Assembly (NCBI RefSeq): GCF_019429625.1
Contig: NZ_JAHXRW010000002.1
Coordinates: 62,001-126,000, forward strand
Origin: Celeribacter sp. PS-C1
Lineage (GTDB): Bacteria; Pseudomonadota; Alphaproteobacteria; Rhodobacterales; Rhodobacteraceae
DNA: 64,000 bases
Direction: 5' to 3'
The notes beneath the pieces are model-generated. The model searched no databases. It saw only the letters and a program-made list of their open reading frames with translations, and was not told the origin of the DNA. The position numbers and the translations under genes were made by a program. This document shows, in pieces, positions 3,068 through 29,894 of this stretch (position 1 is its first letter; every line of letters begins with the position of its first letter).

Positions 3068-3114
3068 CCCGAGCCGCTCGGGTCGTCCCCGGAGAAAAGC
3101 CCCAGAGGACTGCC

Positions 3115-4458: not shown

Positions 4459-4501
4459 GCCTATCGTGAAACACGAAAAAAGAAGATCGAGTAGGGATAG
4501 C

Positions 4502-5002: not shown

Positions 5003-5069
5003 GAGATCACTGAAGCCTATGAAGGCCGGGTGGCGTGTCCCGTTGAGAGGGCGGTCAGGGCAAAGAGGC

Positions 5070-6365: not shown

Positions 6366-6400
6366 CGGGATCCTTTTTGGCAAACGCGGGCTTAAGTATA

Positions 6401-15004: not shown

Positions 15005-15958
15005 TTAATCTGCGTGCGCAAACATCCGCGCGCCGGAGATCCCGAGTTCGGGTGGAAAATCGACCTTGAGGATAGAACCGCTGTCGGATTCCGTGATGAA
15101 GAGGCTGCGCCCTTCCGGCCCACCGAAGGCACAGTTGGTGGTTCCAAGGCCACGCGGAGAGCGCACGACGGCAATCGGCTGACCGAGCGCGTTGTGCACC
15201 CAGACGAGGCCCATGCCGGTTTGACAGACCACGACACCGCCCTCAGCGGTGAGCGCGAGACCATCGGGTCCGGCGCGGCCGCCGGAAAATTGAATGAACA
15301 GCCCCGCCTTGTTCACCCGTCCGCTCGGGGACAGGATCAGACGCCACACCGCATTGGCGCGGGTCACGGCGAGAAACAGCACACGTTCTGCGAGATCGAG
15401 GACGAGGCCATTCGGGCTTGGCGCGGTGTCGATCAGGCAATCAAGGCGTCCGGTGCCTTCGTTCCAGCGATAGACGCGTCCGGTCGGATCGTGGAGACCG
15501 GTTTGACCCTGATCCGTGAAGAACAGCGTGCCGTCCCGACCGAAATGAAGGTCGTTGCAGCCCTTGAACCCTTCGGTGTCGCAATCCGCGAGGGCGGGCG
15601 TGACCGCGCCGCTATCTGGGTCAAGTAGCATGATGCCGTTCTGATAATCCGCGAGGAAAATCCGCCCGTCACGGTGGATTTTCAACCCGTTGGGCTGTCC
15701 CTCGTATTCGGCAATCTGGCTGACGACACCCTCCGGCGTCGTGCGAAACACGCGGCCGAAGGGGATGTCGACGAAGTAGAGATTGCCCGCGCGGTCAAAG
15801 GACGGCCCTTCGACAAAGCTGTCGACAGCCTCACCGCCACGGTTCTTGTCCGCCCAGTAGGACGCCACGCCCGTGCGCCGCAGCGCGGTCGGCAGTTCGG
15901 TGAATACCTCTGCATCGAGGACCACCGGTTCGGGGGCAGGGTAGGTGTGGGTCGTCAT
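15005..15958 (-). CDS. SMP-30/gluconolactonase family protein
   Basis: The 317-residue six-bladed beta-propeller shows SMP-30/gluconolaconase signatures: EGPSFDRAGNLYFVDIPFGRVFR near residue 50, NDLHFGRDGTLFFTDQG near 135 and SPNGLVLDLAERVLFLAVT near 182. The metal ligands expected in this family (Glu in EGP, Asn in CNDLHF and SPNG, and a later Asp in AGPDG) are present. Members hydrolyse sugar-acid lactones. It is the last gene of the long minus-strand cluster and overlaps the TRAP permease stop/start by four bases, so it is translationally coupled. Its likely job is opening a lactone formed from, or brought in by, the transported substrate. Confidence 0.88.
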   Translation of the reverse strand: MTTHTYPAPEPVVLDAEVFTELPTALRRTGVASYWADKNRGGEAVDSFVEGPSFDRAGNLYFVDIPFGRVFRTTPEGVVSQIAEYEGQPNGLKIHRDGRIFLADYQNGIMLLDPDSGAVTPALADCDTEGFKGCNDLHFGRDGTLFFTDQGQTGLHDPTGRVYRWNEGTGRLDCLIDTAPSPNGLVLDLAERVLFLAVTRANAVWRLILSPSGRVNKAGLFIQFSGGRAGPDGLALTAEGGVVVCQTGMGLVWVHNALGQPIAVVRSPRGLGTTNCAFGGPEGRSLFITESDSGSILKVDFPPELGISGARMFAHAD

Positions 15959-17247
15959 CCGAATGTGACCTCCGGCAGGAACAGGGCGATTTGCGGGAAC
16001 GCGATCATCAGGAGCATAAAGATCAGGATGATGACGAAGAAGGGCATCGTGCCGAGAATGACATCTTCGACAGAGACCTTATCCGACGAACTCGCCACCA
16101 CAAAGAGGATCACCCCCAAGGGTGGTGTGAGCTGACCCAGTTCCACGAGGATCACCACGAAGACACCGAACCAGATCGGATCGACCCCGAGCGCCAGAAG
16201 CGCAGGGAAGATCACGGGCACGATGATCGCGATCATGCCCAGGCCTTCCATGAAGCAACCGAGGATCGCGAAGACCACCATGATGATCAGCAGGAAGGTG
16301 ATTTTGGAGACTTCGGCGCTTTCGAGTTTCGCGACGAGATCTTCGCCGACTCCCGAGAGGGCCGTTGCATAGGCGAAAATCATCGAGGTGAAGACCACGA
16401 AGAGGATGTTGCCGCTCATGACCGCCGTGCGCTTGAGCGCTTCGATGATGAGGCCGAGGCTCAGTTTGCCGTAGATCGCTGAGATGATGATCGCGCCCAC
16501 GGTGCCGACGGCGCCGGCTTCTGTCGGGGTGGCAAAGCCGCCGTAGATGCTGCCCAGAACGATGAAGATCAGCAGAACGAACGGCAGGATATCGAGGAGC
16601 GACCGCGCCAGCACGGCAGGCGTTGCGCGGGTTTCGCTCTTGGGGGCGAGCGACGGGTTGATCACGGCGCGGATCATGATGAAGCCCATGTAGAGCAGCG
16701 CCAGCACGATGCCCGGGATCAAACCGGCGGCAAAGAGGCGCGCGATCGAAGTCTCGGTAAATGTGGCGTAGATGATCATGGTGATCGACGGCGGGATCAG
16801 GATACCCAGCGTGCCGCCAGCGGCCAGCGATCCGGCGACGAGACGGCGGTTATAGCCGCGGCCGCTCAGTTCGGGGAGAGAGACGGTGGACATGGCGGCG
16901 GCGGTCGGGGCACTGCCGCCCGAGATCGCCGCGAAGATGCCGCTGCCGACGATGTTGGTGTGCAACAGCCCGCCCGGGAGCCGCCGCATAAATGGTGCGA
17001 CGCCGTTATAGAGACGCGAGGCGAGGCCGGAGCCGAGGAGGATTTCGGCCATCAGCACGAAGAGCGGGATCGCCGCGAGGGTAAAGCTATTGGCGGCGCC
17101 CCAGCTGACGAGACCAAGTGCCTTCCAGCCAGCAAATCCTTTGAGCATCCAAAGGTAGAAGAGGCCCGCACTCGCAACGGTGAATTGGACCCACATGCCC
17201 CCGAGGATGAGGCCGATCAGAACGCCAAAGGCAAGTATCGCTTCCAT
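15955..17247 (-). CDS. dctM: TRAP transporter large permease (DctM type)
   Basis: This protein of 430 residues is the 12-helix permease subunit of a tripartite ATP-independent periplasmic transporter. Typical segments are SGGSAPTAAAMSTVSLPEL, GTLGILIPPSITMIIYA, FATPTEAGAVG, and VELGQLTPPLGVILFVVAS near the end. It works with DctQ and the periplasmic DctP-type protein, both encoded just upstream, to import a carboxylate with sodium. It starts one base after the dctQ stop and overlaps the lactonase gene by four bases, which indicates one operon. Confidence 0.94.
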   Translation of the reverse strand: MEAILAFGVLIGLILGGMWVQFTVASAGLFYLWMLKGFAGWKALGLVSWGAANSFTLAAIPLFVLMAEILLGSGLASRLYNGVAPFMRRLPGGLLHTNIVGSGIFAAISGGSAPTAAAMSTVSLPELSGRGYNRRLVAGSLAAGGTLGILIPPSITMIIYATFTETSIARLFAAGLIPGIVLALLYMGFIMIRAVINPSLAPKSETRATPAVLARSLLDILPFVLLIFIVLGSIYGGFATPTEAGAVGTVGAIIISAIYGKLSLGLIIEALKRTAVMSGNILFVVFTSMIFAYATALSGVGEDLVAKLESAEVSKITFLLIIMVVFAILGCFMEGLGMIAIIVPVIFPALLALGVDPIWFGVFVVILVELGQLTPPLGVILFVVASSSDKVSVEDVILGTMPFFVIILIFMLLMIAFPQIALFLPEVTFG

Positions 17248-17248
17248 G

Positions 17249-17785
17249 TCAGAGGCTTTCTTTGGATTTTTGGAAGGTCAGGATGAGTTTCTCGACCAGG
17301 AAAATACCGATCACTGTAAAGCCCAGCGGGAGCACCATCTGCGGAATCCACAGCGGCGTGCGCAGGACCGTCGGGGCGAATTTGCCGCGCGAGAAGGACG
17401 AGAGCATCAGGTCTTTGGTCTTCCACGCAAGGATCGCACAAACCACAAGCGCCATCACAACGAAGATGCGTGTGATCCAGCGTTGTGCATTGGGCGACAG
17501 GATGTCGAATAGGAAATGCACCCGAAACAGGGCCCCGTGACGGAGCGCCTGTGCTGCGCCGAGGAAGGTCAGCAGCACGACGGAGTAACCGGTCAGTTCT
17601 TCGACGAAGCCCAGTGAGTAGTTGAATGCGCCGCGCAGGAACGCTTCGGTGCAGACCATGATCACGAGGGCCGCCAGAACGACACCGGTCACAACCTGTG
17701 TGGTGCGTTCGGCAACGTCGAAAACGGGACCGGCGGTTGCCGGCCCCTTCTGTTCTTCAAAGTTTGGATTATTTTCCGATTGCAT
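17249..17785 (-). CDS. dctQ: TRAP transporter small permease (DctQ type)
   Basis: The 178-residue protein has four predicted helices. The conserved DctQ features are the GAFNYSLGFVEELTGYSVVLLTFLG stretch (quoted part EELTGYSVVLLTFLGA) and the following HFLFDIL. It forms a membrane complex with DctM. The gene overlaps the dctP 3' end by 17 bases and abuts dctM. The N-terminal 20 residues are polar and probably cytoplasmic. Confidence 0.9.
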   Translation of the reverse strand: MQSENNPNFEEQKGPATAGPVFDVAERTTQVVTGVVLAALVIMVCTEAFLRGAFNYSLGFVEELTGYSVVLLTFLGAAQALRHGALFRVHFLFDILSPNAQRWITRIFVVMALVVCAILAWKTKDLMLSSFSRGKFAPTVLRTPLWIPQMVLPLGFTVIGIFLVEKLILTFQKSKESL

Positions 17786-18743
17786 CGCGGACTACCTTCA
17801 GGGCCTCGACATACTCGGGGCCATTTTCTTCCGCCCAGCTTGCCCAGAACGGTGCGAGCTTTTCAGCGGCCATATCTACATCGCCTTCGGCAGCGTCGGT
17901 GAGGGTCATACCCGCTGCGGATTGCGACGCCTTCTGTGCGTCTTCGTCCACGAGGAACGCAGCCGTCGTGGCCGGACCTTCCTCTGCGACGATGGCGCGG
18001 AGCGTTTCCTGCACCGCCGGATCGAGCGCCTCAAAGGCGTCGGCATTGGCGATGATCATCGAGTTGCCGTAGTTCACCGAAAAACGGTAGTTGTAGGGCA
18101 GGAACTCGTGCCAGTTCTTCGCACCACCAGCGCTTGCGGTAAGCACGCCTTCGATCACGCCGCGCTCCAGAGAGGTCGGCACTTCGCTACCCGACAGGGT
18201 GATTGCGGCACCGCCGAACTCTTCGACGAACTTGCCCTGTTCCGGCGAAGTCACGCGGATTTTGTGGCCGTCAAGATCAGCGAGGCTGTTGACGGGGAAG
18301 GTGGTGAAGATCGTCTGTTCCGGATAACGGTAGCCGCCCAGAAGAACGACGTTCTGGTCTGCGAAGGCCTCCACGAGCGTCGGCTCGATCGCGGCATAGG
18401 CAGCGGCCCATTCCTCATCGTTCTCGATGAGCATCGGCAGGTTCAGAATGCGTGCGATCGGCACGTTGCCGGAAAAGAAGAAGTCGGCAGCGAAGTCGAC
18501 GATGCCGTCACCAACGGCCTGCGTGATGTCGGCCGATGCGATCTGAAGCGTCTTGCCGAGGTGCAGGGTGATGTCGAGTTCGCCGTCGGTTTCGGCGGCG
18601 ACGCGTTCCGAGATGCGGGTCATGCCTTTCACGGCGGACGTTGTGGACACGGACGAATAGGTGTAGGCGGTCCAGTCGTCAGCCGTCGCTGCGAGCGGCA
18701 GGGTCAGCGTGAGCGCGGTGGCGGCGATGGTTTTGAAATTCAT
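17769..18743 (-). CDS. dctP: TRAP transporter substrate-binding protein (DctP type)
   Basis: This 324-residue periplasmic protein has a Sec signal peptide (FKTIAATALTLTLPLAATA, cleavage near residue 21). It carries the DctP signature region GGYRYPEQTIFTTFPVNSLA and GHKIRVTSPEQGKF around residues 147-178; the arginine in KIRV is the usual carboxylate-binding residue of TRAP solute receptors. It is closer to the C4-dicarboxylate/organic-acid type than to the sialic acid type by eye, but the ligand is not predictable. A strong AGGAGGA ribosome-binding site precedes the ATG. A hairpin lies in the gap from the preceding TctC gene. Confidence 0.9.
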   Translation of the reverse strand: MNFKTIAATALTLTLPLAATADDWTAYTYSSVSTTSAVKGMTRISERVAAETDGELDITLHLGKTLQIASADITQAVGDGIVDFAADFFFSGNVPIARILNLPMLIENDEEWAAAYAAIEPTLVEAFADQNVVLLGGYRYPEQTIFTTFPVNSLADLDGHKIRVTSPEQGKFVEEFGGAAITLSGSEVPTSLERGVIEGVLTASAGGAKNWHEFLPYNYRFSVNYGNSMIIANADAFEALDPAVQETLRAIVAEEGPATTAAFLVDEDAQKASQSAAGMTLTDAAEGDVDMAAEKLAPFWASWAEENGPEYVEALKVVRDAIGK

Positions 18744-18792
18744 GTGTTTATCCTCCTAGAGATGCCGAAGGTCTCCTCCTCGGCGGTATGGA

Positions 18793-18819
18793 CCGGCGCG
18801 CCCAGGGGGGCAACGCCGG
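18793..18819 (-). other. Intercistronic hairpin after the second tctC gene
   Basis: CCGGCG (18793-18798) pairs with CGCCGG (18814-18819) around a 15-base loop, just downstream of the tctC stop and before dctP. There is no U-tract, so it is more likely a messenger-stabilising or attenuating element than a full terminator. Confidence 0.35.
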
Positions 18820-18825
18820 AAAAGA

Positions 18826-19773
18826 TCATTTCCAGGGCGTCTCTTCCCAGATCGCCCGTGCGACACCATCTTGCTGAACGGCAACGGCTTCGAACGCGTC
18901 ACCCGATACGAAAGAAATCGGGTTGCCTTGCTCGGCCATCATCGCCTGAAACTCCTCCATGGCGTTCACTGCGCTCAGTGCGGCCTCGAGCTTTGCTTCG
19001 ACCTCCGGATCGAGACCCGCCGGTGCTACGATACCACGGAGCGACGACATTTGCGCATCATATCCGAGTTCTTTGGCTGTCGGCACATCGGGACGGAAGG
19101 CGGAGCGTTCGTCGGACAGCACCGCGAGCACACGCAATTCGTCCTGGAAGGACGCGGTCTGGCTCAGGGTCATGGTTCCTGCGGCAACGTGCTTGCCCAT
19201 CAGAGCGGTGCGCGCCATCGAGGCACCTTTGAACGGCACGAGGGTGAATTCGGCGCCGGATGCCTGAGCGATCATGTTGGCCGAGAAGTGGTCATTGCCG
19301 CCGAGCGACGACAGACCCAGAGTGATTGCGCCCGGATCGGCTTTTGCGGCGGCCAGCAGTTCGTCCAGCGTCTGGAATTCCGAGGAGGCGCTCACGACAA
19401 CGGTGTTCGGGTCTTCGACGAAGTTGGCGAGGTAGGTGTAGCTCGTCACGTCGTAATCGGCATTACGGTCGTTGGTCAGAGCCAAAGCGGCAGGCAGGTT
19501 GAACGTGCCGAGTGTGTAGCCATCGGGATCGGCATTCGCGACCTCGGTGAAGCCGATCTGGCCCCCTGCGCCGGGCATGTTTTTGACAACCACAGCGGCG
19601 CCATCGCCGAGTGCGGTTTCAAGGAATTTTGCCACGGTGCGGGCCATCACATCGGTGCCGCCGCCGGCGGAATAGCCAACGATGACTTCGATCGGTTTCT
19701 CAGGGTATTCGGCCAGTGCGGGTGTGGCGACGGCCATCGCCGCGAGCAGCGCGGCGGATAGGGTTTTTCTCAT
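18826..19773 (-). CDS. tctC: TTT transporter substrate-binding protein (TctC/Bug family), paralogue 2
   Basis: The 315-residue periplasmic protein has a signal peptide (MRKTLSAALLAAMAVATPALA) and then the Bug-family opening YPEKPIEVIVGYSAGGGTD, which forms part of the carboxylate-binding site. It is clearly a tandem paralogue of the TctC-type protein encoded at 22945-23898: both share ANADPDGYTLGTFNLP, the VPFKG motif and the ending ETPW. Bug proteins bind carboxylates and feed TctA/TctB. I chose the ATG at 19773, which gives a proper signal peptide; it overlaps the amidohydrolase stop by four bases. Only one tctBA pair is nearby, so both receptors may share it. Confidence 0.9.
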   Translation of the reverse strand: MRKTLSAALLAAMAVATPALAEYPEKPIEVIVGYSAGGGTDVMARTVAKFLETALGDGAAVVVKNMPGAGGQIGFTEVANADPDGYTLGTFNLPAALALTNDRNADYDVTSYTYLANFVEDPNTVVVSASSEFQTLDELLAAAKADPGAITLGLSSLGGNDHFSANMIAQASGAEFTLVPFKGASMARTALMGKHVAAGTMTLSQTASFQDELRVLAVLSDERSAFRPDVPTAKELGYDAQMSSLRGIVAPAGLDPEVEAKLEAALSAVNAMEEFQAMMAEQGNPISFVSGDAFEAVAVQQDGVARAIWEETPWK

Positions 19774-20813
19774 GACAGGGTCCTCCCGGTTGATGTCGTG
19801 AAAAGTGTGTCGTCGATGCCGTAGCAGCGGGCGGCTGTGCGCCAGAACAGATCGTCGCGCGCGGAGGCGTCCAGATCTGCGGCCAGCCTTTTGAAGGCGT
19901 TCCAGAGCGTCCGATAGCCGAACTGCCCTTTGTCGACGGGAAAATTGCTCTCGAACATGGCGCGCTCTGCGCCGAAGAGATCGAGACACGCGGCCACATG
20001 CGGTTGCCAGTCTGCGGCCAGAATTTCGGAGTGCGGTGGCTGAGGGGCATCGGCATAGCGATAGCCCATGACCGAGAGTCCAAAGCCGCCGATCTTGATC
20101 CGCGTGTTGGGCAGCGCGGCCACCTCGGCCAAGGCGCTGCGCCAGTCCGCGAAACAGGCCGCATCATTGATGCGATACGGCCCGATCCCCAAAGGGCCAC
20201 CGCAATGATCTACGACCACTGTCAGTTCCGGCAGGGCGCGGGCGAGTGCCGCGACCTCGGAAAGCTGGCTTTGATAGGCCCAGACATCGAGGCAAAGCCC
20301 CGCCTCGGCCACCGCACGGGCCCCTTCGTAGAACGCAGGGGTGCGCAAAAGGCCGTCAGGGGCAGGGCGCGGGTTCGAGCGCACAGCCGGATCGGCGTGC
20401 CACGCGGTCGTGTTGCGAATGCCCTTAACGCGGCCTTCGCCAGTACCGATGAGGGCATCAAGAACCGGGCGCACGTCGGCGCCCAGTTGAAGATCGGCAA
20501 AGGCCACGAGCCCGACCGGAAACTGCGGCTGCGCACGTCCCCAATCGAGGATCGTGCGCACCTCACCCACCGGGCGAAGAGCCTCTGGCCCGTTCTCATA
20601 ATAGCCTGTGCGGCATTGGACATAGAGGCTGGCACGCAGGTCGTGACCATCGCCTATGTCGGCGGCAAGCTCCTCAGACCGATAACGACCCTCCGGCCGG
20701 TCCCAGAGGTGATGATGACAGTCGAAAATCGGCTGCGCAGGATCAATCACCTCTTCGCGGACCAAAGCCAGCCAGTCCTCACGGACGGTATGATGAGGGC
20801 TTGCCAGTGCCAT
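19770..20813 (-). CDS. Amidohydrolase/lactonase of the COG3618 (fuconolactonase/PDC hydrolase-like) family
   Basis: The 347-residue TIM-barrel hydrolase begins its domain with IFDCHHHLWDRPEGRY near residue 29, the start-of-strand HxH metal motif. It continues with VVDHCGGPLGIGPY and ends with MFESNFPVDKGQFGY. This pattern is typical of COG3618 enzymes, which hydrolyse sugar-acid lactones or 2-pyrone-4,6-dicarboxylate. Its position between tctA and a tctC gene, with four-base overlap downstream and a three-base gap upstream, ties it to the transport operon. With the SMP-30 lactonase it gives the cluster two different lactone-opening enzymes. Confidence 0.85.
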   Translation of the reverse strand: MALASPHHTVREDWLALVREEVIDPAQPIFDCHHHLWDRPEGRYRSEELAADIGDGHDLRASLYVQCRTGYYENGPEALRPVGEVRTILDWGRAQPQFPVGLVAFADLQLGADVRPVLDALIGTGEGRVKGIRNTTAWHADPAVRSNPRPAPDGLLRTPAFYEGARAVAEAGLCLDVWAYQSQLSEVAALARALPELTVVVDHCGGPLGIGPYRINDAACFADWRSALAEVAALPNTRIKIGGFGLSVMGYRYADAPQPPHSEILAADWQPHVAACLDLFGAERAMFESNFPVDKGQFGYRTLWNAFKRLAADLDASARDDLFWRTAARCYGIDDTLFTTSTGRTLS

Positions 20814-20816
20814 GGA

Positions 20817-22328
20817 TCAGGCCTCCTCGCCTTCCTTCTTGCGGCTGTCGATGAAGCGACGCTTGAGCATCGGACCGATGACAACGGCGACGGTGAGGGC
20901 AACGAGCACGAGGCTGGTGGTGTTCTTGAACAGCACGGCCCAGTCACCGCGACCAATCCGCAGGGCAAGACGCAGGTTCTCTTCGGCGAATGCACCGAGG
21001 ATCAGGCCGAGCACCACAGGCGGGAGCGGAAACTTGAGTTTGTCCATCACCCAGCCGACAGCCCCGAAGCCGAGCATCATGTAGACGTCGAACATCCGGC
21101 CGTGGATCGAATAGACCCCGATCAGCATGAGGACGATGATGATCGACCCGAGCAGCGGACGCGGCAGGTTCAGCAGACGTGCGAAGCTGTTGGTCGCGAG
21201 AGAACCGCCGAGCAGCACGAGCAGGATCGCACCGAAGAGGAACTGCCACATGAAGCCGAACACAACATCCGGGTTGTCACGGAAGAGCATCGGACCCGGT
21301 TGCAGACCATGCACGAGCAGACCACCGAGCATAACAGCCGCCACAGCCGTCCCCGGGATGCCGAGCGTCAGAGCCGGGATCAGCGCGGACGCGGTGTCGG
21401 CGTTGTTCGCAGTTTCTGCTGCGGCGACGCCTTCGGGTTCACCTTGGCCCCAATCTTCGGGCTTTTTGGAGCTGCGACGGGCTTCGTTGTAGGACATGAA
21501 CGCGGCCATGGAGCCACCGGCGCCCGGCAGGATGCCGATCCAGATGCCGATGAAAGAGCCACGCAGCCAAGTTTTCCAGTAGCCCTTCATTTTGGGCAGA
21601 GCTTTCCAGATCGGCTCGGTGCCGAGCTTTTCTCCTTCGACGCTGTCGGTCTTGAGCGGAGTTTCGAGCAGGTCGATCACCGGCGGGAGCGCATATAGGC
21701 CCACGAGCAGGATCACGATGTTGATGCCATCGAGCAGTTCGAGTTGACCAAAGGTGAAGCGGTCGTTGCCGTAGATCGGGTCAGAGCCGATGACGGAAAC
21801 GAAGACGCCGAAACAGGCGGAGATCAGGCCCTTCACCGGGTTCCCGCCGAGCAGGAAAATGATGGAAGCGAGGCCGAACACAGCGACCCAGAACACTTCA
21901 GCCGGACCGAAGAGCAGCGTCACTTTGGACAGCGGCGGTGCGAGCAGCATCAGCGCAAAGGCCGACGCAATGCCGCCGATGGAAGAGGACACAACAGCGA
22001 CCTGAAGGGCAAAGCCGCCCTGACCCTTTTGGGCCATCGGGTAGCCGTCAAACGTGGTTGCCACAGCCGCAGGCGTGCCGGGAATACGCAGCAGCACAGC
22101 CGGGATCGCACCACCATACATAGCGCCGTTATAGATACCGGCCATAAGGCCAAGCGCGACGAGCGGCTCAAGTCCAAAGGTGAAGGGCACGAGGACCGAG
22201 ATCGCCATCGTGGCGCTCAGGCCGGGCATAGCGCCGACAACGATACCGGCGAGCACGCCGATGATCACGGCGAGGAAGTTCGTCAGGGCGAAAACTTCGG
22301 GAAGGGCGTGGAGTAGATCAGAATACAT
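20817..22328 (-). CDS. tctA: TTT transporter large membrane subunit TctA
   Basis: This protein of 503 residues has about eleven membrane helices and the TctA signatures GAMPGLSATMAISVLVPFTF near residue 33, YGGAIPAVLLRIPGTPAA near 73, GILPGAGGSMAAFMSYNEAR in the middle and ALIPALTLGIPGTAVAAVML. It is the permease of a tripartite tricarboxylate transporter and works with TctB and a TctC receptor. The start at 22328 matches family length; an upstream extension would run into tctB. Only seven bases separate it from the tctB stop. Confidence 0.94.
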   Translation of the reverse strand: MYSDLLHALPEVFALTNFLAVIIGVLAGIVVGAMPGLSATMAISVLVPFTFGLEPLVALGLMAGIYNGAMYGGAIPAVLLRIPGTPAAVATTFDGYPMAQKGQGGFALQVAVVSSSIGGIASAFALMLLAPPLSKVTLLFGPAEVFWVAVFGLASIIFLLGGNPVKGLISACFGVFVSVIGSDPIYGNDRFTFGQLELLDGINIVILLVGLYALPPVIDLLETPLKTDSVEGEKLGTEPIWKALPKMKGYWKTWLRGSFIGIWIGILPGAGGSMAAFMSYNEARRSSKKPEDWGQGEPEGVAAAETANNADTASALIPALTLGIPGTAVAAVMLGGLLVHGLQPGPMLFRDNPDVVFGFMWQFLFGAILLVLLGGSLATNSFARLLNLPRPLLGSIIIVLMLIGVYSIHGRMFDVYMMLGFGAVGWVMDKLKFPLPPVVLGLILGAFAEENLRLALRIGRGDWAVLFKNTTSLVLVALTVAVVIGPMLKRRFIDSRKKEGEEA

Positions 22329-22335
22329 GGGAGCC

Positions 22336-22797
22336 TCAGTTCTGCCAGAGACGGCCAGTGGGGAAGTCCTGCGACATCCCGAAATCAAAAATCAGCCAGA
22401 TGGAGCCAACGACGATCGCAGTCGCGATCGCGAGGCCGAGCGGATTGCGGAAGCCAAACACATAGGCCACGGTCGGCACGGCGATGACGGTGCTGATGTA
22501 GAAACCGATCAGGTCGGAGGCGACGGCATAGGCGACGATGAGACAGAACGCCCCGATCACGCGCTTGGGTGAATTGGTCACCTTTTCAGGGGCTTCACCT
22601 GCAGCGGCTTTGCGCTGATCGGACAGCAGTAGCAGCAGCGACAGGATGATCAGACCGATCAGCATGGCGGCGGGCAGCAGTGCTGAAATCGACCGCAAGT
22701 CGGTCGTCGGGATCAGAAAACCGGCGGCAACAACGAGGATGCCGACTGCGCTCAGTGTTTCGGGACGCAAGAAGCGATTTTTATGACCTTCGGACAT
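22336..22797 (-). CDS. tctB: TTT transporter small membrane subunit TctB
   Basis: The 153-residue protein has four predicted membrane helices (for example VGILVVAAGFLIP and AMLIGLIILSLLLLL) and the loosely conserved TctB layout. It partners TctA in the inner membrane. The ATG at 22797 begins MSEGHKNRFLRPETLSA, a sensible cytoplasmic start. The 147 bases separating it from the upstream tctC gene hold a perfect 9-bp hairpin. Sequence conservation in this family is low; position beside tctA is the main support. Confidence 0.85.
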   Translation of the reverse strand: MSEGHKNRFLRPETLSAVGILVVAAGFLIPTTDLRSISALLPAAMLIGLIILSLLLLLSDQRKAAAGEAPEKVTNSPKRVIGAFCLIVAYAVASDLIGFYISTVIAVPTVAYVFGFRNPLGLAIATAIVVGSIWLIFDFGMSQDFPTGRLWQN

Positions 22798-22907
22798 GGT
22801 TGAAGCTCCAAAGAAAAAGGGGGATGGCGCTGCGGCTGTGCCGCGCAAATCACACGTCGGGGTCTCGACTGGGAGGTGGAAATGAGGCCCCGGCGTGCGT
22901 TTTTGAG

Positions 22908-22935
22908 CCGCAGGCGACATATCAGCCGCCTGCGG
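22908..22935 (-). other. Intercistronic hairpin between tctC (paralogue 1) and tctB
   Basis: CCGCAGGCG (22908-22916) and CGCCTGCGG (22927-22935) form a perfect 9-bp stem with a 10-base loop, 10 bases after the tctC stop. No U-tract follows in the direction of transcription. Such hairpins after binding-protein genes often protect the upstream message from 3' exonucleases, raising receptor over permease levels. Confidence 0.55.
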
Positions 22936-22944
22936 TCAGGAGGA

Positions 22945-23898
22945 TTAGTTCCAGGGGGTCTCTTGCCACACTTGGTTTGCGAGGTCGTAGAGTTCCGAAG
23001 TCAGCGCCTTGAACTCATCGCCGCGCACGACTTCCACCGGGTTGGCGGTGTCTTTCATCGCCTGGAGGAAATCCGGATCGCTGGCGAGTTGTGCAAAGGC
23101 TGCGTCGAGTTTGGCGACGACGTCGTCGGGCAGACCAGCAGGGGCCACGAAGCCGCGCATGGAGCCGTTGACCACATCGTAACCCTGCTCCTGAAGCGTC
23201 GGCAGGTCCGGCGCGAAGTCAGAGCGTTCCGGCGTTGCCACTCCGAGTACGTTGAGTTCTTCTTGGAAGCTGGCAACTTCAGAGATGTTCAGAATGCCCA
23301 TGGCGACGTGGCCACCCATGAGTGCGGTCCGTGCAGGCGCGGAGCCTTTGAACGGCACGATGGTGAACTCGCTCTCGGTCAGACCTTCGAGTTTGATCAG
23401 CATGAAATGGTCGTCACCGCCGAGGCTCGACATGCCGACGGTGATGGCGCCCGGATCGGCCTTGGCGGCTGCGATCAGTTTGTCCATCGTGTCGAGGCCG
23501 CTGCTTTTCGCGGTCACGATGACGTTCGGGTCATTTACGACGTTGGCAAGATAGGTAAAGCTCTCGCGGTCGTAATCGGCCTCACGGTCGATGGTGCGGG
23601 CCATCATCCCCGGAAGGTTGAACGTGCCGAGCGTGTACCCGTCAGGATCAGCATTTGCCACCTCGGTCACACCGATCTGACCCGATGCGCCGGGCACGTT
23701 TTTCACCACAAGGCTGGCACCGTCGCCGAGATATTTCTCGATGAACGGAGCGGCCGTGCGGGCCATCACATCGGTGCCGCCGCCGGCGGAATAGCCGACG
23801 ATCACTTCGATCGGCTTTTCCGGGTATTCGGCCACGGCAGCACCCGCTGCGAGGACAAAGGCGCCCACGAGGGCGGATTTCTGAAACAGTTTATGCAT
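22945..23898 (-). CDS. tctC: TTT transporter substrate-binding protein (TctC/Bug family), paralogue 1
   Basis: The 317-residue periplasmic receptor has a signal peptide (LFQKSALVGAFVLAAGAAVA) and the family opening YPEKPIEVIVGYSAGGGTD. It also carries GASGQIGVTEVANADPDGY and IVPFKGSAPARTALMGGHVA. It should bind a carboxylate and deliver it to the TctBA pair encoded directly downstream. A strong AGGAGG precedes the ATG at 23898; a start six codons upstream lacks one. It shares a 41-base identical DNA segment with paralogue 2, indicating duplication or gene conversion. Confidence 0.92.
   Translation of the reverse strand: MHKLFQKSALVGAFVLAAGAAVAEYPEKPIEVIVGYSAGGGTDVMARTAAPFIEKYLGDGASLVVKNVPGASGQIGVTEVANADPDGYTLGTFNLPGMMARTIDREADYDRESFTYLANVVNDPNVIVTAKSSGLDTMDKLIAAAKADPGAITVGMSSLGGDDHFMLIKLEGLTESEFTIVPFKGSAPARTALMGGHVAMGILNISEVASFQEELNVLGVATPERSDFAPDLPTLQEQGYDVVNGSMRGFVAPAGLPDDVVAKLDAAFAQLASDPDFLQAMKDTANPVEVVRGDEFKALTSELYDLANQVWQETPWN
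23756..23796. repeat. 41-bp identical repeat shared with 19637-19677
   Basis: The DNA coding for the GYSAGGGTDVMART region is identical over 41 bases in the two tctC genes (this copy and 19637-19677), in the same orientation 4.1 kb apart. Recombination between them would delete tctB, tctA and the amidohydrolase and fuse the receptors. Seen directly by comparing the two segments. Confidence 0.7.
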
Positions 23899-23946
23899 GG
23901 TACTCCTCCTGTTCATGCGAATGGTCTGTTTGGGGTGATCCCGGCC

Positions 23947-24627
23947 TCACTCAGCCGGGAATTCGCAACCAAGACGCTTCAGCGCAGCGTCGACCCAAGT
24001 GCGGTCGTTCGTGCCTTCGGCGATGGCTTTCATTTGGTTGATTTCGGCGTCGGATTTGGCCTGAGTCTTTTTCAGAACCTCTTCCGCGTCCGCGAGCGGC
24101 ACGCAGTGCACGCCATCGCTGTCGCCGATGACGATGTCACCGGGGTGGATCACCATGCCGCCGAGGCTGATCGGGACGTTGATCTCGCCCGGGCCGTCTT
24201 TGTACGGGCCGCGGTGGCTCACACCGGCGGCGAAGGTCGGCAGATTGGTTTCGACAAACGCGTCAACGTCGCGGATCGCACCGTTGAGCACGAAACCGGC
24301 CACACCTTTTTTCACGGCGTAGGCGAGCATCAGTTCACCCATCAGCGCGTTGGTCAGATCACCACCCGCGTCAACGACGATCACGTCACCCGGCACTGCC
24401 ATGTCGATGGCTTTGTGCAGCATCAGGTTGTCACCCGGGCGTGCTTTCACCGTGAGCGCCACACCGGCCATGCCGCCGGAGGCGTGCATCGGGCGCAGGG
24501 TCGGGCCAGCGGCGGTCATGCGGGACATGCTGTCCGAGACGTTGGCGACAGGGAGCTTGGCATAGGCGTCGACCAGATCTTTGGATGCGACCTGGGTGCG
24601 GTTGAGGATACGGAAACCGACAGGCAT
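23947..24627 (-). CDS. RraA-family protein (putative HMG/CHA aldolase or oxaloacetate decarboxylase)
   Basis: The 226-residue protein has the RraA fold signatures: VANVSDSMSRM near residue 27, GDVIVVDAGGD near 80, GELMLAYAVKKGVAGFVLNG, and the catalytic RDVDAF pair of class II pyruvate aldolases. Members lyse 4-hydroxy-4-methyl-2-oxoglutarate or 4-carboxy-4-hydroxy-2-oxoadipate, or decarboxylate oxaloacetate. Others only inhibit RNase E, but this operon context favours metabolism. The residue two after RDV is Asp and then Ala; whether the acid needed for aldol cleavage is in place needs an alignment. GGAG precedes the ATG at 24627, one base after the dehydrogenase stop. Confidence 0.85.
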   Translation of the reverse strand: MPVGFRILNRTQVASKDLVDAYAKLPVANVSDSMSRMTAAGPTLRPMHASGGMAGVALTVKARPGDNLMLHKAIDMAVPGDVIVVDAGGDLTNALMGELMLAYAVKKGVAGFVLNGAIRDVDAFVETNLPTFAAGVSHRGPYKDGPGEINVPISLGGMVIHPGDIVIGDSDGVHCVPLADAEEVLKKTQAKSDAEINQMKAIAEGTNDRTWVDAALKRLGCEFPAE

Positions 24628-24628
24628 A

Positions 24629-25636
24629 TTATTTCTCCACTGTGGTAAGGACCGCATCGGCGGTCAGGAATTTGCGGTTGGCAATGCGTGCCGGGGCGAC
24701 GGATTCGCCTTCGAGCACCTGAAAGATGCCGGTCAGTGCTTCGACGCCGACACGGGCATTGGCCTGAGCGGTGACGCCGCCGATGTGCGGGGTCATCACG
24801 ATGTTGGGCTGCGAGAAGAAGATGTGGTCGGCTCCCGGCGGTTCAGCGGCAAAGGTGTCGAGACCTGCCCCTGCGATGTGGCCGGATTCGACCGCTGCTA
24901 CGAGAGCGGCTTCGTCGATGAGGCCGCCACGCGCTGTGTTGACCACGTAGGAGCCTTTTGGCATCTGGGCGAGCGCCTCAGCGTTCACGATGCCACGGGT
25001 GCTGTCGGTCAGCGGGCAGTGCAGCGACAGGACGTCCGAGGCCGCGAAAAGCTCTTCGGTCGTGGTGCAGCGTTTCGCACCGATTTCTTCGAACAAGCTG
25101 TCGGGGGCGAAGGGGTCATAGGCGATCAGGTTGAGGCCTAGGCCCTTCGCCATGAGGCCGGTGGCCCGCGCGATCGCGCCGATGCCCATCAGACCCATCG
25201 TCGCGCCGAAGAGTTCGCGGCCTTGAAAACCGGGTTTCTCCCAACGGCCTGCACGCAGGCTCGCGTCGAGCGGCAGTACGCGTTTTACGGTGGCGAGCAT
25301 AAGGGCGATGGCGTGTTCGGCCACAGAGACCGCGTTGGCCCCCGTTGCTACGAGCACTGGCACGCCGCGTTCACCGGCGGCTGCGAGGTCGATGTTGTCG
25401 ACGCCCACGCCGTGTTTGGAGATCACTTTAAGCTGGGGGGCTGCATCCATCACCTGAGCGTCGATGCGACCCAGTCGAGATACGATTCCGACCGCGCCGC
25501 TTTCGACCATCAGATCAGCAAGCACCGACGCCTCGGCATAGGCGGGGCCGTATACCAAGCTATAGCCGCGCTCGGCGGCAAGCGTCTTCGCGGCAGGGGC
25601 GAGATCGGGGCCGGTTACAAGGATCGTCTTGCTCAT
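24629..25636 (-). CDS. D-2-hydroxyacid dehydrogenase (NAD-dependent)
   Basis: The 335-residue enzyme has the D-isomer 2-hydroxyacid dehydrogenase fold. A dinucleotide motif GLMGIGAIAR lies near residue 148. The catalytic arginine is in VVNTARGGLIDE, the glutamate in DTFAAEPPG, and the histidine in TPHIGGVTAQA. It resembles phosphoglycerate dehydrogenase-like proteins without the regulatory ACT domain. It would oxidise a D-2-hydroxyacid to a 2-oxoacid or the reverse. It is the first gene of the minus-strand cluster and faces the LysR gene across 191 bases, so its promoter is probably the regulated one. The RraA-type lyase that follows could act on the 2-oxoacid product. Confidence 0.88.
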   Translation of the reverse strand: MSKTILVTGPDLAPAAKTLAAERGYSLVYGPAYAEASVLADLMVESGAVGIVSRLGRIDAQVMDAAPQLKVISKHGVGVDNIDLAAAGERGVPVLVATGANAVSVAEHAIALMLATVKRVLPLDASLRAGRWEKPGFQGRELFGATMGLMGIGAIARATGLMAKGLGLNLIAYDPFAPDSLFEEIGAKRCTTTEELFAASDVLSLHCPLTDSTRGIVNAEALAQMPKGSYVVNTARGGLIDEAALVAAVESGHIAGAGLDTFAAEPPGADHIFFSQPNIVMTPHIGGVTAQANARVGVEALTGIFQVLEGESVAPARIANRKFLTADAVLTTVEK

Positions 25637-25787
25637 TGCACATGTCTCCAGTGGCGCTCAAGCAGTGGCCGAGCGCAGTCTTTAAAATTCGGTATGTTGG
25701 ATCACCGCGTCTGCCTCCCAGCAGAGCACGGGCAGTCTCCTCCGTGTGGCGAACACCGTAAGACGAAGATACTCTTCACAAAAGCGA

Positions 25788-25804
25788 TTAATTCTTGTTA
25801 TTAA
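25788..25804. promoter_or_regulatory. LysR-type inverted repeat in the divergent promoter
   Basis: TTAAT (25788-25792), seven bases, ATTAA (25800-25804) forms an interrupted palindrome 24 bases upstream of the LysR start and within the intergenic region shared with the hydroxyacid dehydrogenase operon. This matches the T-N11-A layout of LysR recognition sites. Binding is inferred. Confidence 0.5.
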
Positions 25805-25827
25805 GTTTAGAAAAACTGGATCTAGTA

Positions 25828-26721
25828 ATGGACACACGTCAACTCAAAACGCTTTTGGCGATTCAGAGCCACGGCACTTTTGCCCATGCCGCCGATGTTG
25901 TTGGCCTCACTCCGTCCGCGGTCAGTCAACAGATTCAGGCCCTCGAACAGGAGTTGAACGTTACGCTGTTCGACCGCACCCACAGGCCGCCGAAGCTCAC
26001 GCCGCACGGGATGCAGGTCATTGAAATGGCGAAGGATATTCTCCAAAGGCAGGAGGATGCCAAGGCCAGTCTTCGCGGCGATCTGGTGGCGGGAAAGCTG
26101 TTGCTTGGCTCGGTGCGCTCCAGTGCGCTCAACCTGTTGCCGCGGACCATTCTGCAAATGCGCGAGACCTATCCAAAGCTGACGATCAGCCTGCGGGTTT
26201 CGCTCTCTTCGACCTTGATTTCAGATGTGGCCTCGGGACGTCTCGACGCCGCGATGGTTGCAGAACATGTCGGTTTTCCGGCCGCCTTGCGGTGGACTCC
26301 CTTCCTTCGTGAGCCTCTTTGGCTCATCGCGCCCCGCAATACGGAGAGTCGCGACCCGATTCATTTGCTCAATACGATGCCTTATGTCCGGTTCCACAGT
26401 CAGGTGCCGCTCGCCAATCTGATCGACACAGAGCTGTCCAGAATTGGCGCCGTGACGCAGGACGTGGCGCAGATCGATACCATCGGCTCAATCGTGACCT
26501 GCGTCCGGCAGGGGCTCGGGATTTCCGTCGTGCCGCATGTGGCGTTGCAGGAACCGGAGGACATGAACCTCGTCCGCATCCCGTTCGGCTCTCCGCAGTT
26601 GACCCGCCAGATCGGCCTCGTGGAACGGACTGGCTCGCCCCGCCACGAACTCACGACGGCGCTGCACAAGGTTCTCGTCTCGCTCTGCGGGGAATACGGC
26701 GTGCCACGCACCGAGGGGTGA
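25828..26721 (+). CDS. LysR-family transcriptional regulator of the adjacent catabolic cluster
   Basis: The 297-residue regulator has an N-terminal winged helix (LKTLLAIQSHGTFAHAADVV followed by TPSAVSQQIQALEQEL) and a periplasmic-binding-like effector domain. The start MDTRQLKTLLAI fits the family; a frame open further upstream is not needed. It is transcribed divergently from the eleven-gene transport and catabolism operon, the usual arrangement for a LysR protein that senses the substrate or an intermediate and activates its neighbour. The effector is unknown. Confidence 0.9.
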   Translation: MDTRQLKTLLAIQSHGTFAHAADVVGLTPSAVSQQIQALEQELNVTLFDRTHRPPKLTPHGMQVIEMAKDILQRQEDAKASLRGDLVAGKLLLGSVRSSALNLLPRTILQMRETYPKLTISLRVSLSSTLISDVASGRLDAAMVAEHVGFPAALRWTPFLREPLWLIAPRNTESRDPIHLLNTMPYVRFHSQVPLANLIDTELSRIGAVTQDVAQIDTIGSIVTCVRQGLGISVVPHVALQEPEDMNLVRIPFGSPQLTRQIGLVERTGSPRHELTTALHKVLVSLCGEYGVPRTEG

Positions 26722-27563: not shown

Positions 27564-28367
27564 GTGCACAAGTCGTGTGTGAGGTTGGGTAAACTACCAT
27601 ATGTTGCGGCTTTCTGGGCCGCGCTGGGTCTCGGGGTGACTCTGATTCCTTTCGATACGGCCGAGGCAGTGAGCGAAAGGGATGCAGGGAAAGTGCATGC
27701 TGCTCCCCCTCTGCGACTTGCTTCAAACTCCTCGGAGAAATCCCGGTCTCTCAAGAGCGCGATTCTGTCCGGACGGGACGGGGCATTACGAGTCGTCGAT
27801 GGGGATACGTTGGCGATCGGAGAAATCAAAATCCGTCTTCACGGCATAGATGCGCCGGAACTGTCGCAAAGCTGTAGCGATATGCGGGGCGAAAGCTGGG
27901 CCTGTGGTGATTGGTCGAAAGCGGTGCTGGCGCGCTTGGCTGTGGGCGAGGTCGCCTGCGTTGAAAAGGCCCGCGATCGCTATGGCCGCACGGTCGCTGT
28001 GTGTTATGGCGATGCGGGCGATTTGAACGCCGAAATGGTGCGTGCGGGCGCGGCCTATGCCTATGCGAAATACAGTCGCGACTATGTTGCCGACGAAGAG
28101 GCTGCACGCGCTGGGGGACACGGCCTCTGGCGTGCGGGAAGTCAGGCGCCTGCCGCGTATCGCGCCGAGACGCGCGTCGCCCCAGCGCCCCAGACACCGC
28201 CGTCGGACTGTGCGATCAAGGGCAATATCTCCAGTTCCGGTAAGCTCTATCATATGCCGGGCGGACGATGGTACGACGGCACGCGGATCAATGCGACTTC
28301 GGGCGAACGCTGGTTTTGTTCAGAGAGCGAGGCCCGCGCCGCGGGTTGGCGCAAAGCAAAAGGCTAA
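27564..28367 (+). CDS. Secreted staphylococcal-nuclease-like protein with C-terminal Cys motif domain
   Basis: The 267-residue protein has an N-terminal hydrophobic segment (PYVAAFWAALGLGVTLIPF) that is a likely signal peptide or anchor. An SNase domain follows (about residues 70-195). The catalytic pattern is visible: VDGDTLAIGEIKIRLHGIDA with the following PE, and ARDRYGRTVAVC with the second arginine. The C-terminal 50 residues (CAIKGNISSSGKLYHMPGG, then GERWFCSESEARAAGWR) form the small domain seen in ExoI-type proteins. It should cleave nucleic acids in the periplasm or outside the cell. The only suitable start is GTG at 27564 without a clear ribosome-binding site, so the N-terminus is uncertain. 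Confidence 0.82.
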   Translation: MHKSCVRLGKLPYVAAFWAALGLGVTLIPFDTAEAVSERDAGKVHAAPPLRLASNSSEKSRSLKSAILSGRDGALRVVDGDTLAIGEIKIRLHGIDAPELSQSCSDMRGESWACGDWSKAVLARLAVGEVACVEKARDRYGRTVAVCYGDAGDLNAEMVRAGAAYAYAKYSRDYVADEEAARAGGHGLWRAGSQAPAAYRAETRVAPAPQTPPSDCAIKGNISSSGKLYHMPGGRWYDGTRINATSGERWFCSESEARAAGWRKAKG

Positions 28368-28455: not shown

Positions 28456-28531
<76 letters not shown>

Positions 28532-28616
28532 TTTCCCCGGTATCTTAAGTTTCTTTGTTGATGCTCGTTGCATCTGAAATGTCTTTATGTGCCGTATGAC
28601 GGAAGAGGGAAATTCA

Positions 28617-29540
28617 ATGTCCCATTTTGAAACGTCAGAGTCCTACGCGAACGCGTCTCCGAGCAAGTTCTATAAGCTTGCCTCAAAGCTCGGCTTTACG
28701 AATCCCTGGAATGTTTACTGGTTTTACTCTGCGACAGAGGGCCTGAATTTCGGCGACTGGATCGGCCCATATCTTTTCAACAAGATCACGGGACGCAAAG
28801 CGCGGCTCGTCCGGGGCAAGGGGCCCTTGGGTGATGTGTTGCTGAGCTGTGGCAGTATCTTGGGGCATGTGAAGCGGGCGCATAAGGCGATTGTCTGGGG
28901 CAGCGGCGTTCTGACGGAAGAGACCCGCTTTCCTGAGCCCAAGGAAATCCATGCGGTTAGGGGGCCCTTGTCGCGCGAGGTTTGCATCCGTCAGGGCTAT
29001 GATTGCCCCGAGATATATGGCGATCCAGGCAGTCTTATGCCGCTCTTTTTCGATCCGGAAAGGCCGGAGGAGAAAGCCGATCTTGGCATTATTCCGCATC
29101 ACTCAGAAGTCGAGGATGTGCTTGCGCAGTTTGGGCATAAGGATGGGGTGAAGATCATTGATGTGCGGCGGCCTTTGGAAACGGTGATTTCCGACATTGT
29201 TGCCTGTCATGCCATCGTTTCGACCTCCCTGCATGGGGTGATCATCGCGGATGCCTATAAGGTGCCGGTCGCCTGGGCGACGTTTCATGGTCAGCTTCTT
29301 GGCGGTGATTTCAAGTTCAAGGATTACTTTCTCGGGATCGGGCTCACAGAGATGCCGATCCCTGTTGATTTGAAAGTGGTTCAGGATAAGGACGCTCTGG
29401 TGAAATTGGCGCGCGAGAGAGAAAGTCCCGATTTGACCAAGGTACAGCAGCGTTTGCTAACACAGTATCCGACGCGCTATGGCTGCGTCGATGAGGTGCT
29501 CAATACACTCCTCGAAGCACCAGAAACACGCGACGTGTGA
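28617..29540 (+). CDS. Polysaccharide pyruvyl transferase family protein
   Basis: The protein of 307 residues has the CsaB/ExoV-type pyruvyl-transferase pattern: NFGDWIGPYLFNKITG near the start, IVWGSGVL, EIYGDPGSLMP, and the near-C-terminal ISTSLHGVIIADAY-type motif (here VSTSLHGVIIADAYKVP). Such enzymes add ketal pyruvate to a sugar in exopolysaccharide or lipid-linked glycans. GAGGGA precedes the ATG at 28617, and earlier in-frame starts lack support. The gene is isolated between tRNA-Val and the tRNA-Asp pair, without any polysaccharide gene nearby, so its acceptor is unknown and acquisition by transfer is possible. Confidence 0.83.
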   Translation: MSHFETSESYANASPSKFYKLASKLGFTNPWNVYWFYSATEGLNFGDWIGPYLFNKITGRKARLVRGKGPLGDVLLSCGSILGHVKRAHKAIVWGSGVLTEETRFPEPKEIHAVRGPLSREVCIRQGYDCPEIYGDPGSLMPLFFDPERPEEKADLGIIPHHSEVEDVLAQFGHKDGVKIIDVRRPLETVISDIVACHAIVSTSLHGVIIADAYKVPVAWATFHGQLLGGDFKFKDYFLGIGLTEMPIPVDLKVVQDKDALVKLARERESPDLTKVQQRLLTQYPTRYGCVDEVLNTLLEAPETRDV

Positions 29541-29624
29541 TGGGGCCTGTTGTGCCATCCGGGGCCTCGGAAATCTCCGTCCAAAGTTTTTTCTCGCCCC
29601 CGACACTTTTTCGCGATTCCGTGC

Positions 29625-29653
29625 TTGACGAGGGCGCGCCCCGGCCATAGAAC
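29625..29653 (+). promoter_or_regulatory. Sigma-70-type promoter of the tRNA-Asp pair
   Basis: TTGACG (29625-29630) and TAGAAC (29648-29653) are separated by 17 bases and end 39 bases before the first tRNA-Asp. Spacing and distance are right for a housekeeping promoter serving both tRNA genes. Confidence 0.65.
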
Positions 29654-29692
29654 GCCCCTCACGTTCAGGGCACGGTCCTGATCGGGCAGCGG

Positions 29693-29769
29693 GCGGTTGT
29701 AGCTCAGTTGGTTAGAGTGCCGGCCTGTCACGCCGGAGGTCGCGGGTTCGAGCCCCGTCAACCGCGCCA
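29693..29769 (+). tRNA. tRNA-Asp (anticodon GTC), copy 1
   Basis: The 77-base cloverleaf has acceptor GCGGTTG/CAACCGC, D-arm GCTCAGTTGGTTAGAG, anticodon loop CTGTCAC (GTC), T-arm CGCGGGTTCGAGCCCCG and an encoded CCA. It is identical to the copy at 29818. Confidence 0.96.
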
Positions 29770-29817
29770 TCGCTGCCAAAACATAGCCCTTCGGGGCGCG
29801 CCTGAAAAAGGCACTGC

Positions 29818-29894
29818 GCGGTTGTAGCTCAGTTGGTTAGAGTGCCGGCCTGTCACGCCGGAGGTCGCGGGTTCGAGCCCCGTCAACCGCGCCA
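29818..29894 (+). tRNA. tRNA-Asp (anticodon GTC), copy 2
   Basis: Identical in all 77 bases to the copy at 29693-29769. Only 48 bases separate the two, so they are probably processed from one transcript. Confidence 0.96.

Follow-up and report, generated by a model that had tools for sequence, protein, structure and literature searches.

A conserved modular operon in Celeribacter and distant relatives, with a proposed role in the catabolism of 2-hydroxy acids and their lactones

RraA-like proteins, TctC-type solute receptors and amidohydrolases of COG3618 are very common and, for the most part, have no known substrates. When examining a 64,000-nucleotide stretch of the 3.87-Mb, 40-contig genome of Celeribacter sp. 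PS-C1 (positions 62,001 to 126,000 of contig NZ_JAHXRW010000002.1; hereafter, the window), we observed an island that joins proteins of all three kinds to a D-2-hydroxyacid dehydrogenase (HADH) and two importers, namely, a tripartite tricarboxylate transporter (TTT) and a tripartite ATP-independent periplasmic (TRAP) transporter, so that three annotation gaps become one testable pathway. As claimed in the first-pass annotation, eleven minus-strand genes run under a divergent LysR gene, with all frames open and uninterrupted and each of the 12 proteins above its curated Pfam cut-off; the listed content and order stand, with the small corrections that LysR is the twelfth gene and that several starts are shifted. 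The annotation also held that no named pathway matches the set and, indeed, neither such a pathway nor a description of this gene set came up in the open-licence papers searched. The operon is conserved, modular, made of known kinds of enzymes and, apparently, uncharacterised.

The closest described systems each share a part of this island. The 4-hydroxy-4-methyl-2-oxoglutarate/4-carboxy-4-hydroxy-2-oxoadipate (HMG/CHA) aldolase LigK/GalC/PcmE (structure 3NOJ) has the same fold family and the same catalytic Arg, Asp, Glu and His as the window RraA, whereas the latter carries Glu in place of Asp102 and falls under both equivalog cut-offs, and the operon contains no protocatechuate or gallate genes; in particular, it lacks the ring-cleavage dioxygenase that, together with LigI, LigJ and LigK, is required for protocatechuate 4,5-cleavage. 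The COG3618 lactonases, such as L-fucono-1,5-lactonase (4dlf, 4do7) and LigI, resemble the amidohydrolase of the island (AHS) in the triosephosphate isomerase (TIM) barrel, the HxH motif and a later His; by contrast, AHS is a longer chain, has Asn290 at the position of the catalytic Asp and scores low as a fuconolactonase. The non-phosphorylative L-fucose and L-rhamnose pathways also employ a COG3618-type lactonase that feeds a 2-oxo acid degraded to pyruvate; the operon, however, encodes neither a sugar dehydrogenase nor an acid dehydratase, and oxidation of the 2-hydroxyl would replace dehydration. Catabolism of L-ascorbate in Cupriavidus likewise combines one lactonase of the gluconolactonase family with one of the amidohydrolase family, but the operon lacks the cytochrome b561, the WD40-type rearranging enzyme and the PdxA-type decarboxylase. 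Both the ascorbate and the fucose pathways were rejected because genes required for them are missing from the operon. Riboflavin catabolism, as outlined in PMC12746152, is a different route. The Agrobacterium fabrum plasmid pAtC58 carries a HADH-RraA-TctCBA core with LysR, HADH (54% identity), RraA (60%) and a TTT in the same order as in the window; this TTT, however, belongs to another subfamily, and the stretch read contains an extra dehydrogenase and a glycerate kinase and no AHS, TRAP transporter or SMP-30/gluconolactonase-type lactonase (SGL), the last of the window's genes.

Catalytic residues and the proposed pathway

We propose, with a probability of about 0.5, that the island is a modular operon for the breakdown of 2-hydroxy acids that are also found as lactones, with oxidation followed by aldol cleavage by RraA. 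The TTT (receptors TctC1 and TctC2 with TctAB) and the TRAP transporter (DctPQM) would import at least two related acids or lactones; SGL and AHS would open the lactone (or related ester) forms; HADH, with NAD, would convert the (R)-2-hydroxy group to give a 2-oxo acid; RraA, as a metal-dependent class II pyruvate aldolase, would cleave the 4-hydroxy-2-oxo acid to pyruvate and an aldehyde or oxo acid; and LysR would sense the substrate or an intermediate. The substrate would then be a 2,4-dihydroxy acid, with 3-deoxyaldonic or aldaric acids, 2,4-dihydroxyglutarate and 2,4-dihydroxybutyrate as candidates. A route from lactone opening through 2-hydroxyacid oxidation to RraA cleavage had been suggested in the first-pass annotation; it fits the catalytic residues and the neighbours of these genes in relatives, whereas the lactonase label of the COG3618 protein is weakened. 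On the whole, the pathway logic is moderately supported.

HADH, a protein of 335 amino acids, has the features of a D-2-hydroxyacid dehydrogenase: R236, E265 and H284, which we take to be the Arg-Glu-His triad, and D174, presumably the NAD-binding Asp, are kept in all 39 sequences. The possibility that HADH is the biosynthetic SerA was rejected, given that it scores 280.1 bits against a cut-off of 454 for the SerA model TIGR01327 and lacks the C-terminal regulatory domain, and that a SerA-like frame of 563 amino acids is present elsewhere in the genome (C1:353533).

RraA, the sole PF03737 match in the genome, aligns with the HMG/CHA aldolase 3NOJ without gaps, at an offset of +6. Among the residues of that enzyme to which roles are assigned in PMC5065237 are Arg-40, His-75, Gly-101, Arg-123, Asp-124 and Glu-199; R46, G107, R129, D130 and E205 of RraA are kept in 66 of 66 sequences, the window included, and H81 in 64. 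A role as a regulator of RNase E was rejected in view of these retained aldolase residues and the operon context. The genome encodes two LigB-family proteins, a weaker one on C1 and a stronger one, HpaD, which lies in an hpa cluster that also encodes its own HpaI; because of the latter, and because RraA is the only PF03737 match, RraA probably does not serve protocatechuate or gallate 4,5-cleavage, and its assignment as the CHA aldolase of this genome was rejected. RraA does exceed the cut-off of the subfamily PRK06201, named "hypothetical protein" (323.8 versus 231 bits).

The two hydrolases differ in how well they conform to their families. SGL exceeds the PF08450 cut-off (137.3 versus 26.3 bits), and E50, N135, N183 and D232, which we take to be candidate metal ligands, are conserved in at least 95% of 20 sequences, as expected of the SMP-30/gluconolactonase family. 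The predicted model of AHS (predicted local distance difference test score, 94.7) is a COG3618 barrel with 4do7 and 4dlf as the closest folds (template modelling score of 0.68 by query length to these L-fucono-1,5-lactonases) and contains the HxH motif and the later His. Since neither hydrolase has an evident signal peptide on inspection by eye of the N-termini, both are probably cytosolic. COG3618 is listed in PMC8222616 among the COGs that are often co-regulated with sugar-acid or aromatic genes.

Conservation, modules and paired receptors

We compared 80 named AHS loci (each at most 21 kb, many ending at contig ends), with the layouts of relatives built by homology, plain open reading frame layouts being unreliable in GC-rich loci. 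In this search, most of the closest named relatives are Rhodobacterales. The full 12-gene order is also found in Cohaesibacter (L001), Celeribacter (L002), Pseudoprimorskyibacter (L003) and Rhodovulum (L005), with one additional gene of the metallo-beta-lactamase fold in the L002 island (family checked on the L144 copy). Allgaiera (L004) and a Rhodobacteraceae metagenome-assembled genome (L006) have the island minus TRAP and SGL. Rearranged orders, found in Halomonadaceae among others, are seen in Salinicola (L008) and a gammaproteobacterium (L007), both stretches ending after DctQ, as well as in two further genomes of another class (L161, L162), Thalassospira (L009/L172) and genome G558 (L131). 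The set of RraA, AHS and TctCBA thus recurs in distant genomes in the same or a rearranged order. Because distant genomes, across families and classes, keep the gene order, the island is more than a chance assembly. The earlier suggestion of a dedicated catabolic operon is supported.

Across the 80 loci, RraA is present in all 8 with an AHS at least 60% identical to that of the window, in 6 of 8 at 50-60%, in 7 of 22 at 46-50% and in 1 of 42 below that. Because the association falls with AHS identity, the link between RraA and AHS is a property of the window's AHS branch and not of COG3618 at large. Similarly, HADH (at least 38% identity, within 12 kb) lies near RraA in 9 of 9 loci with RraA identity of at least 70%, 10 of 16 at 60-70% and 2 of 20 at 45-60% (45 RraA loci, several of them sharing a genome; one partial match in G114 was left out).

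The island is accessory. With an E-value limit of 1e-60, RraA was detected in 19 of 394 genomes from the family and, among those from the class, in 12 of 385; at the stricter limit of 1e-75, 13 of 398 genomes from the phylum have it, the window's own genome being counted in all three samples. Relatives of RraA also occur in 4 of 29 genomes in the family of G558 and in 1 of 21 in the sample around G131. The family sample contains one other genome of the genus, and it lacks RraA at 1e-60. A recent foreign origin was rejected on the basis of composition, the GC content of the island bins (0.605-0.626) showing no clear step against the other bins (0.554-0.631). Directly downstream of its full island, Cohaesibacter has a second HADH-RraA-TctC-TctA set (L001:16600-20900; HADH 41%, RraA 52%), and in a member of the family, G150 (L145, L157), four RraA relatives pass the 1e-60 limit, three of which lie in a stretch of about 17 kb.

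A comparison of the loci shows that the operon consists of a core (LysR, HADH, RraA and TctCBA) and two optional modules. For the module count, we used 20 loci, the window included, with complete edges, HADH of at least 50%, RraA of at least 60% and a window-type TctA (at least 70%). Left out were edge-cut loci (L007, L008, L171), those equal to others (L139, L141 and L159, the same as L003, L005 and L004, respectively), L127, which nearly duplicates L114, and loci lacking a window-type TctA or a 50% HADH, such as L143 and L150; L131 with L173 and L009 with L172 were each tallied across two stretches of one contig. L144 and L002, which have no sampled 60-base word in common, were treated as separate loci. 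AHS and TctC2 occur together in 13 of these loci and are both missing from 7, never one alone (Fisher test, 1.3e-5, shared ancestry ignored), with one AHS, in L162, only 46% identical. The TRAP transporter, represented by DctM, and SGL are likewise never found one without the other: 12 loci have the two and 8 have neither (8e-6, with the same disregard of ancestry). The two hydrolases are only loosely tied to each other (both 10, AHS only 3, SGL only 2, neither 5; 0.06, ancestry again ignored). Martelella (L112) has the core with TRAP-SGL, and plasmid 2 of Alloyangia (L113) the core with AHS-TctC2; neither module adjoins the core in plasmid 3 of Alloyangia (L114) or in Ponticoccus (L115). On this pattern, the ligand of a receptor can be predicted from its partner hydrolase: TctC2 would bind the substrate of AHS and DctP that of SGL, and TctC1 would bind the open acid.

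TctC1 and TctC2 share 60.6% identity. We labelled the 67 rows of a TctC tree, which was rooted for drawing only, according to their similarity to the two window proteins; the 24 TctC1 and 13 TctC2 sequences each fall on one side of a branch, with support of 100/99 (L144, L139, L141 and L159 are not in the tree, and L172 duplicates L009). The simplest reading of this topology is that one old duplication gave rise to two receptors that would bring two related ligands to one TctAB; given that the receptors form sister groups, a single permease probably serves both ligands. The first-pass annotation had left the choice between two related substrates and one substrate in two forms; because the hydrolases are each paired with a receptor of their own and the sister TctC proteins share one permease, the balance now leans to several related substrates.

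Neighbouring genes in relatives and alternative pathways

In relatives, the genes that accompany RraA include oxidases, aminotransferases, CoA-transferase and CitE-like genes, or dehydrogenase and glycerate kinase genes; these additions point to a 2-oxo acid at the RraA step and give the main grounds for preferring oxidation followed by cleavage. Of the 45 RraA loci, 12 encode a flavin mononucleotide (FMN)-dependent 2-hydroxyacid oxidase (family PF01070, as verified for the L116 copy), which would take the (S)-epimer; the annotated L116, L119 and L120 have one as well. Six RraA clusters (L010, L013, L032, L033, L149, L157) contain an aspartate-aminotransferase-like gene (Pfam checked on the L032 copy), accompanied in five by an amino-acid-type ATP-binding cassette (ABC) importer and in the exception, L149, by TctCBA; four of the six also carry AHS, and a possible role of these clusters is the catabolism of a 4-hydroxy amino acid. 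A coenzyme A (CoA)-transferase and a CitE-like lyase run with HADH and RraA in L124, L147 and L148, the L124 run including an ABC importer annotated as iron-type. After the island, L002, L003, L007, L008, L112, L144 and L161 carry a third amidohydrolase and another TTT. Conceivably, then, lactone, (R)-hydroxy, (S)-hydroxy and amino forms of one 4-hydroxy-2-oxo acid converge in different bacteria on an RraA-type pyruvate aldolase, with plug-in modules of a receptor and a hydrolase and with AHS as a COG3618 lactonase devoid of the canonical Asp; we offer this broader scheme only tentatively.

Several observations weigh against oxidation followed by aldol cleavage as the function of the operon. 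The Asp-x20-Arg-Asp motif of the HMG/CHA aldolases is not intact in RraA: the position aligned with Asp102 of 3NOJ is Glu108, with Glu in 62 of 66 sequences and Asp in 1, and RraA scores under the NCBIfam cut-offs for the CHA and HMG aldolase equivalogs (155.9 versus 179 and 142.6 versus 304.5 bits). Relatives of RraA below 60% identity mostly have no HADH nearby (18 of 20 loci), and some adjoin a Rieske protein (L123) or a flavin adenine dinucleotide (FAD)-dependent oxidoreductase with a tautomerase (L121), so that RraA alone does not define a pathway. Genes for the FMN oxidase and the aminotransferase are both missing from the window operon; elsewhere in the genome there are six FMN_dh matches, the two strong ones resembling L-lactate dehydrogenase models (one over and one under the cut-off). 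In AHS, the SNFPVDK motif places Asn290 at the Asp of the 4dlf SDWP motif, after the last strand, an Asp that we take to be catalytic. This Asn is found in all 26 aligned sequences, SNFP in 52 of 52 AHS-type loci (partly found via that motif) and in 29 of 29 relatives, best matches only, from a whole-protein search down to 30% identity, and the NCBIfam fuconolactonase score is 69.3 against a cut-off of 400. The lactonase label given to the COG3618 protein in the first-pass annotation is, therefore, unproven; either Asp294 or another group may substitute, or the reaction may be other than ordinary lactone hydrolysis. The co-occurrence tests, furthermore, disregard shared ancestry, and the TctC groups owe their labels to similarity to two window proteins. 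Finally, the glycerate kinase and second dehydrogenase of A. fabrum fit hydroxypyruvate as the product at least as well as pyruvate plus an aldehyde.

The last point leads to the main rival, namely, decarboxylation of a tartrate-like acid. Here, the TTT would import a 2-hydroxy-3-carboxy acid of the tartrate or malate type, HADH would yield a beta-keto acid, and RraA, as an oxaloacetate-type decarboxylase, would produce hydroxypyruvate or pyruvate; hydroxypyruvate would be reduced and phosphorylated to 2-phosphoglycerate, and the hydrolase modules would feed ester or lactone precursors. The LigK-type RraA models are indeed named aldolase/oxaloacetate decarboxylase, in A. fabrum C58 genes for a second D-2-hydroxyacid dehydrogenase and for a MOFRL-type glycerate kinase come after the core (and then an unannotated stretch of 189 codons resembling the FMN oxidase), tartrate dehydrogenase and hydroxypyruvate reductase genes lie within a few kb of the core in Ponticoccus, and the window's genome has one glycerate kinase, unlinked to the operon. 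Yet simple tartrate and malate are not known to form a stable gamma-lactone, whereas SGL, AHS and sometimes a third amidohydrolase accompany the core; glycerate kinase is found in 1 of 17 annotated plasmid stretches and beside RraA in none of the 45 RraA loci; and the TTT of A. fabrum is of a different subfamily (TctA 37%). The glycerate kinase clue is, moreover, shared with the preferred reading since tartronate semialdehyde or hydroxypyruvate could come either from an aldol of the 3-deoxyhexarate type or from oxaloglycolate. All told, we regard the tartrate-type pathway as unlikely. An aromatic or pyrone detour, with AHS as a LigI-like pyrone or muconolactone hydrolase and RraA as a LigK-like CHA/HMG aldolase, appears quite improbable: the fold neighbours of AHS do include the putative 2-pyrone-4,6-dicarboxylate hydrolases 4i6k and 2ffi, the third amidohydrolase of the relatives has kin in the L118 and L126 copies, whose matches to 4-sulfomuconolactone hydrolase fall short of the cut-off, and some RraA relatives lie beside oxygenase-like genes, but Pfam scans revealed no ring-cleavage gene in the operon, the stronger LigB-family protein belongs to the hpa cluster, and HADH is not known to have a place in the lig/gal pathways. 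We consider it very improbable that RraA acts like FlDet, an RraA-family protein described in PMC8563752 as dehydrating and decarboxylating 2-keto-3-deoxy-hexarate to 2-oxoglutarate semialdehyde: Pfam scans identified no semialdehyde dehydrogenase among the operon proteins, and FlDet is given there as only 20% identical to the HMG/CHA aldolase, with which the window RraA aligns without gaps and with its residues kept.

Coordinates, intergenic regions and surroundings

The features of the island are collected in Table 1. Likely starts were read from the sequence and, for RraA, also from annotated relatives (RraA, 24627; TctB, 22797; TctA, 22328; TctC2, 19773; LysR, 25828). Adjacent genes overlap or are separated by a few to about 30 bases, the largest gaps being those that follow TctC1 (147 nt) and precede DctP (82 nt), a spacing that looks operon-like. 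The closest solved relative of DctP by sequence is 4n4u.

Table 1. Features of the island, in window coordinates
Feature	Position	Strand	Basis and remarks
LysR-type regulator	25828..26721	+	PF00126/PF03466; divergent from operon; faces HADH in relatives too
LysR-HADH intergenic control region, 191 nt	25637..25827	.	conserved stretch across 11 aligned sequences
HADH, NAD-type D-2-hydroxyacid dehydrogenase	24629..25636	-	PF00389/PF02826
RraA-type, putative class II pyruvate aldolase/decarboxylase	23947..24627	-	PF03737 (RraA-like)
TctC1, TTT solute receptor	22945..23916	-	PF03401; TctC tree
TctC1-TctB gap with GC-rich hairpin	22798..22944	-	fold z -4.85
TctB, small TTT membrane subunit	22336..22797	-	PF07331
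TctA, large TTT permease	20817..22328	-	PF01970, 510 bits
AHS, COG3618-type amidohydrolase, putative lactonase	19770..20813	-	PF04909 (Amidohydro_2); predicted fold
TctC2, second TTT receptor	18826..19773	-	PF03401; sister of TctC1
DctP, TRAP receptor	17769..18743	-	PF03480
DctQ, TRAP small permease	17249..17785	-	PF04290
DctM, TRAP large permease	15955..17247	-	PF06808; TIGR00786 above cut-off
SGL, SMP-30/gluconolactonase-type lactonase, final gene	15005..15958	-	PF08450, 137 bits

In the alignment of the LysR-HADH gap (the window and 10 relatives), 38 columns are invariant, a few of them in the coding ends, and the mean column identity is 66%. The strong GC-rich hairpin lies directly after the TctC1 stop codon, and none of 200 shuffled sequences was equally stable. 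The same gap folds at a z of -2 or lower in 15 of 18 relatives (single-base shuffles), with hairpins that differ in sequence; it does not in L007, L112 and L162. This element likely protects the 3' end of the mRNA, in keeping with the need for more binding protein than permease. Just upstream of the ribosome site of HADH is a small stem-loop (window 25637-25684, minus strand; z only -1.07); single folds of many relatives show a stem-loop before HADH, of differing sequence, and the consensus fold of the relatives contains no leader hairpin at this place.

Just past the LysR end of the island, the plus strand carries a tRNA-Val and two copies of tRNA-Asp (window 28456-29894), and a polysaccharide pyruvyl transferase family protein (28587-29540, plus strand) adjoins a staphylococcal-nuclease-like protein (27564-28367). 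At window 2848-6383, there are two long frames on opposite strands that, by eye, resemble metal-dependent deaminases or amidohydrolases.

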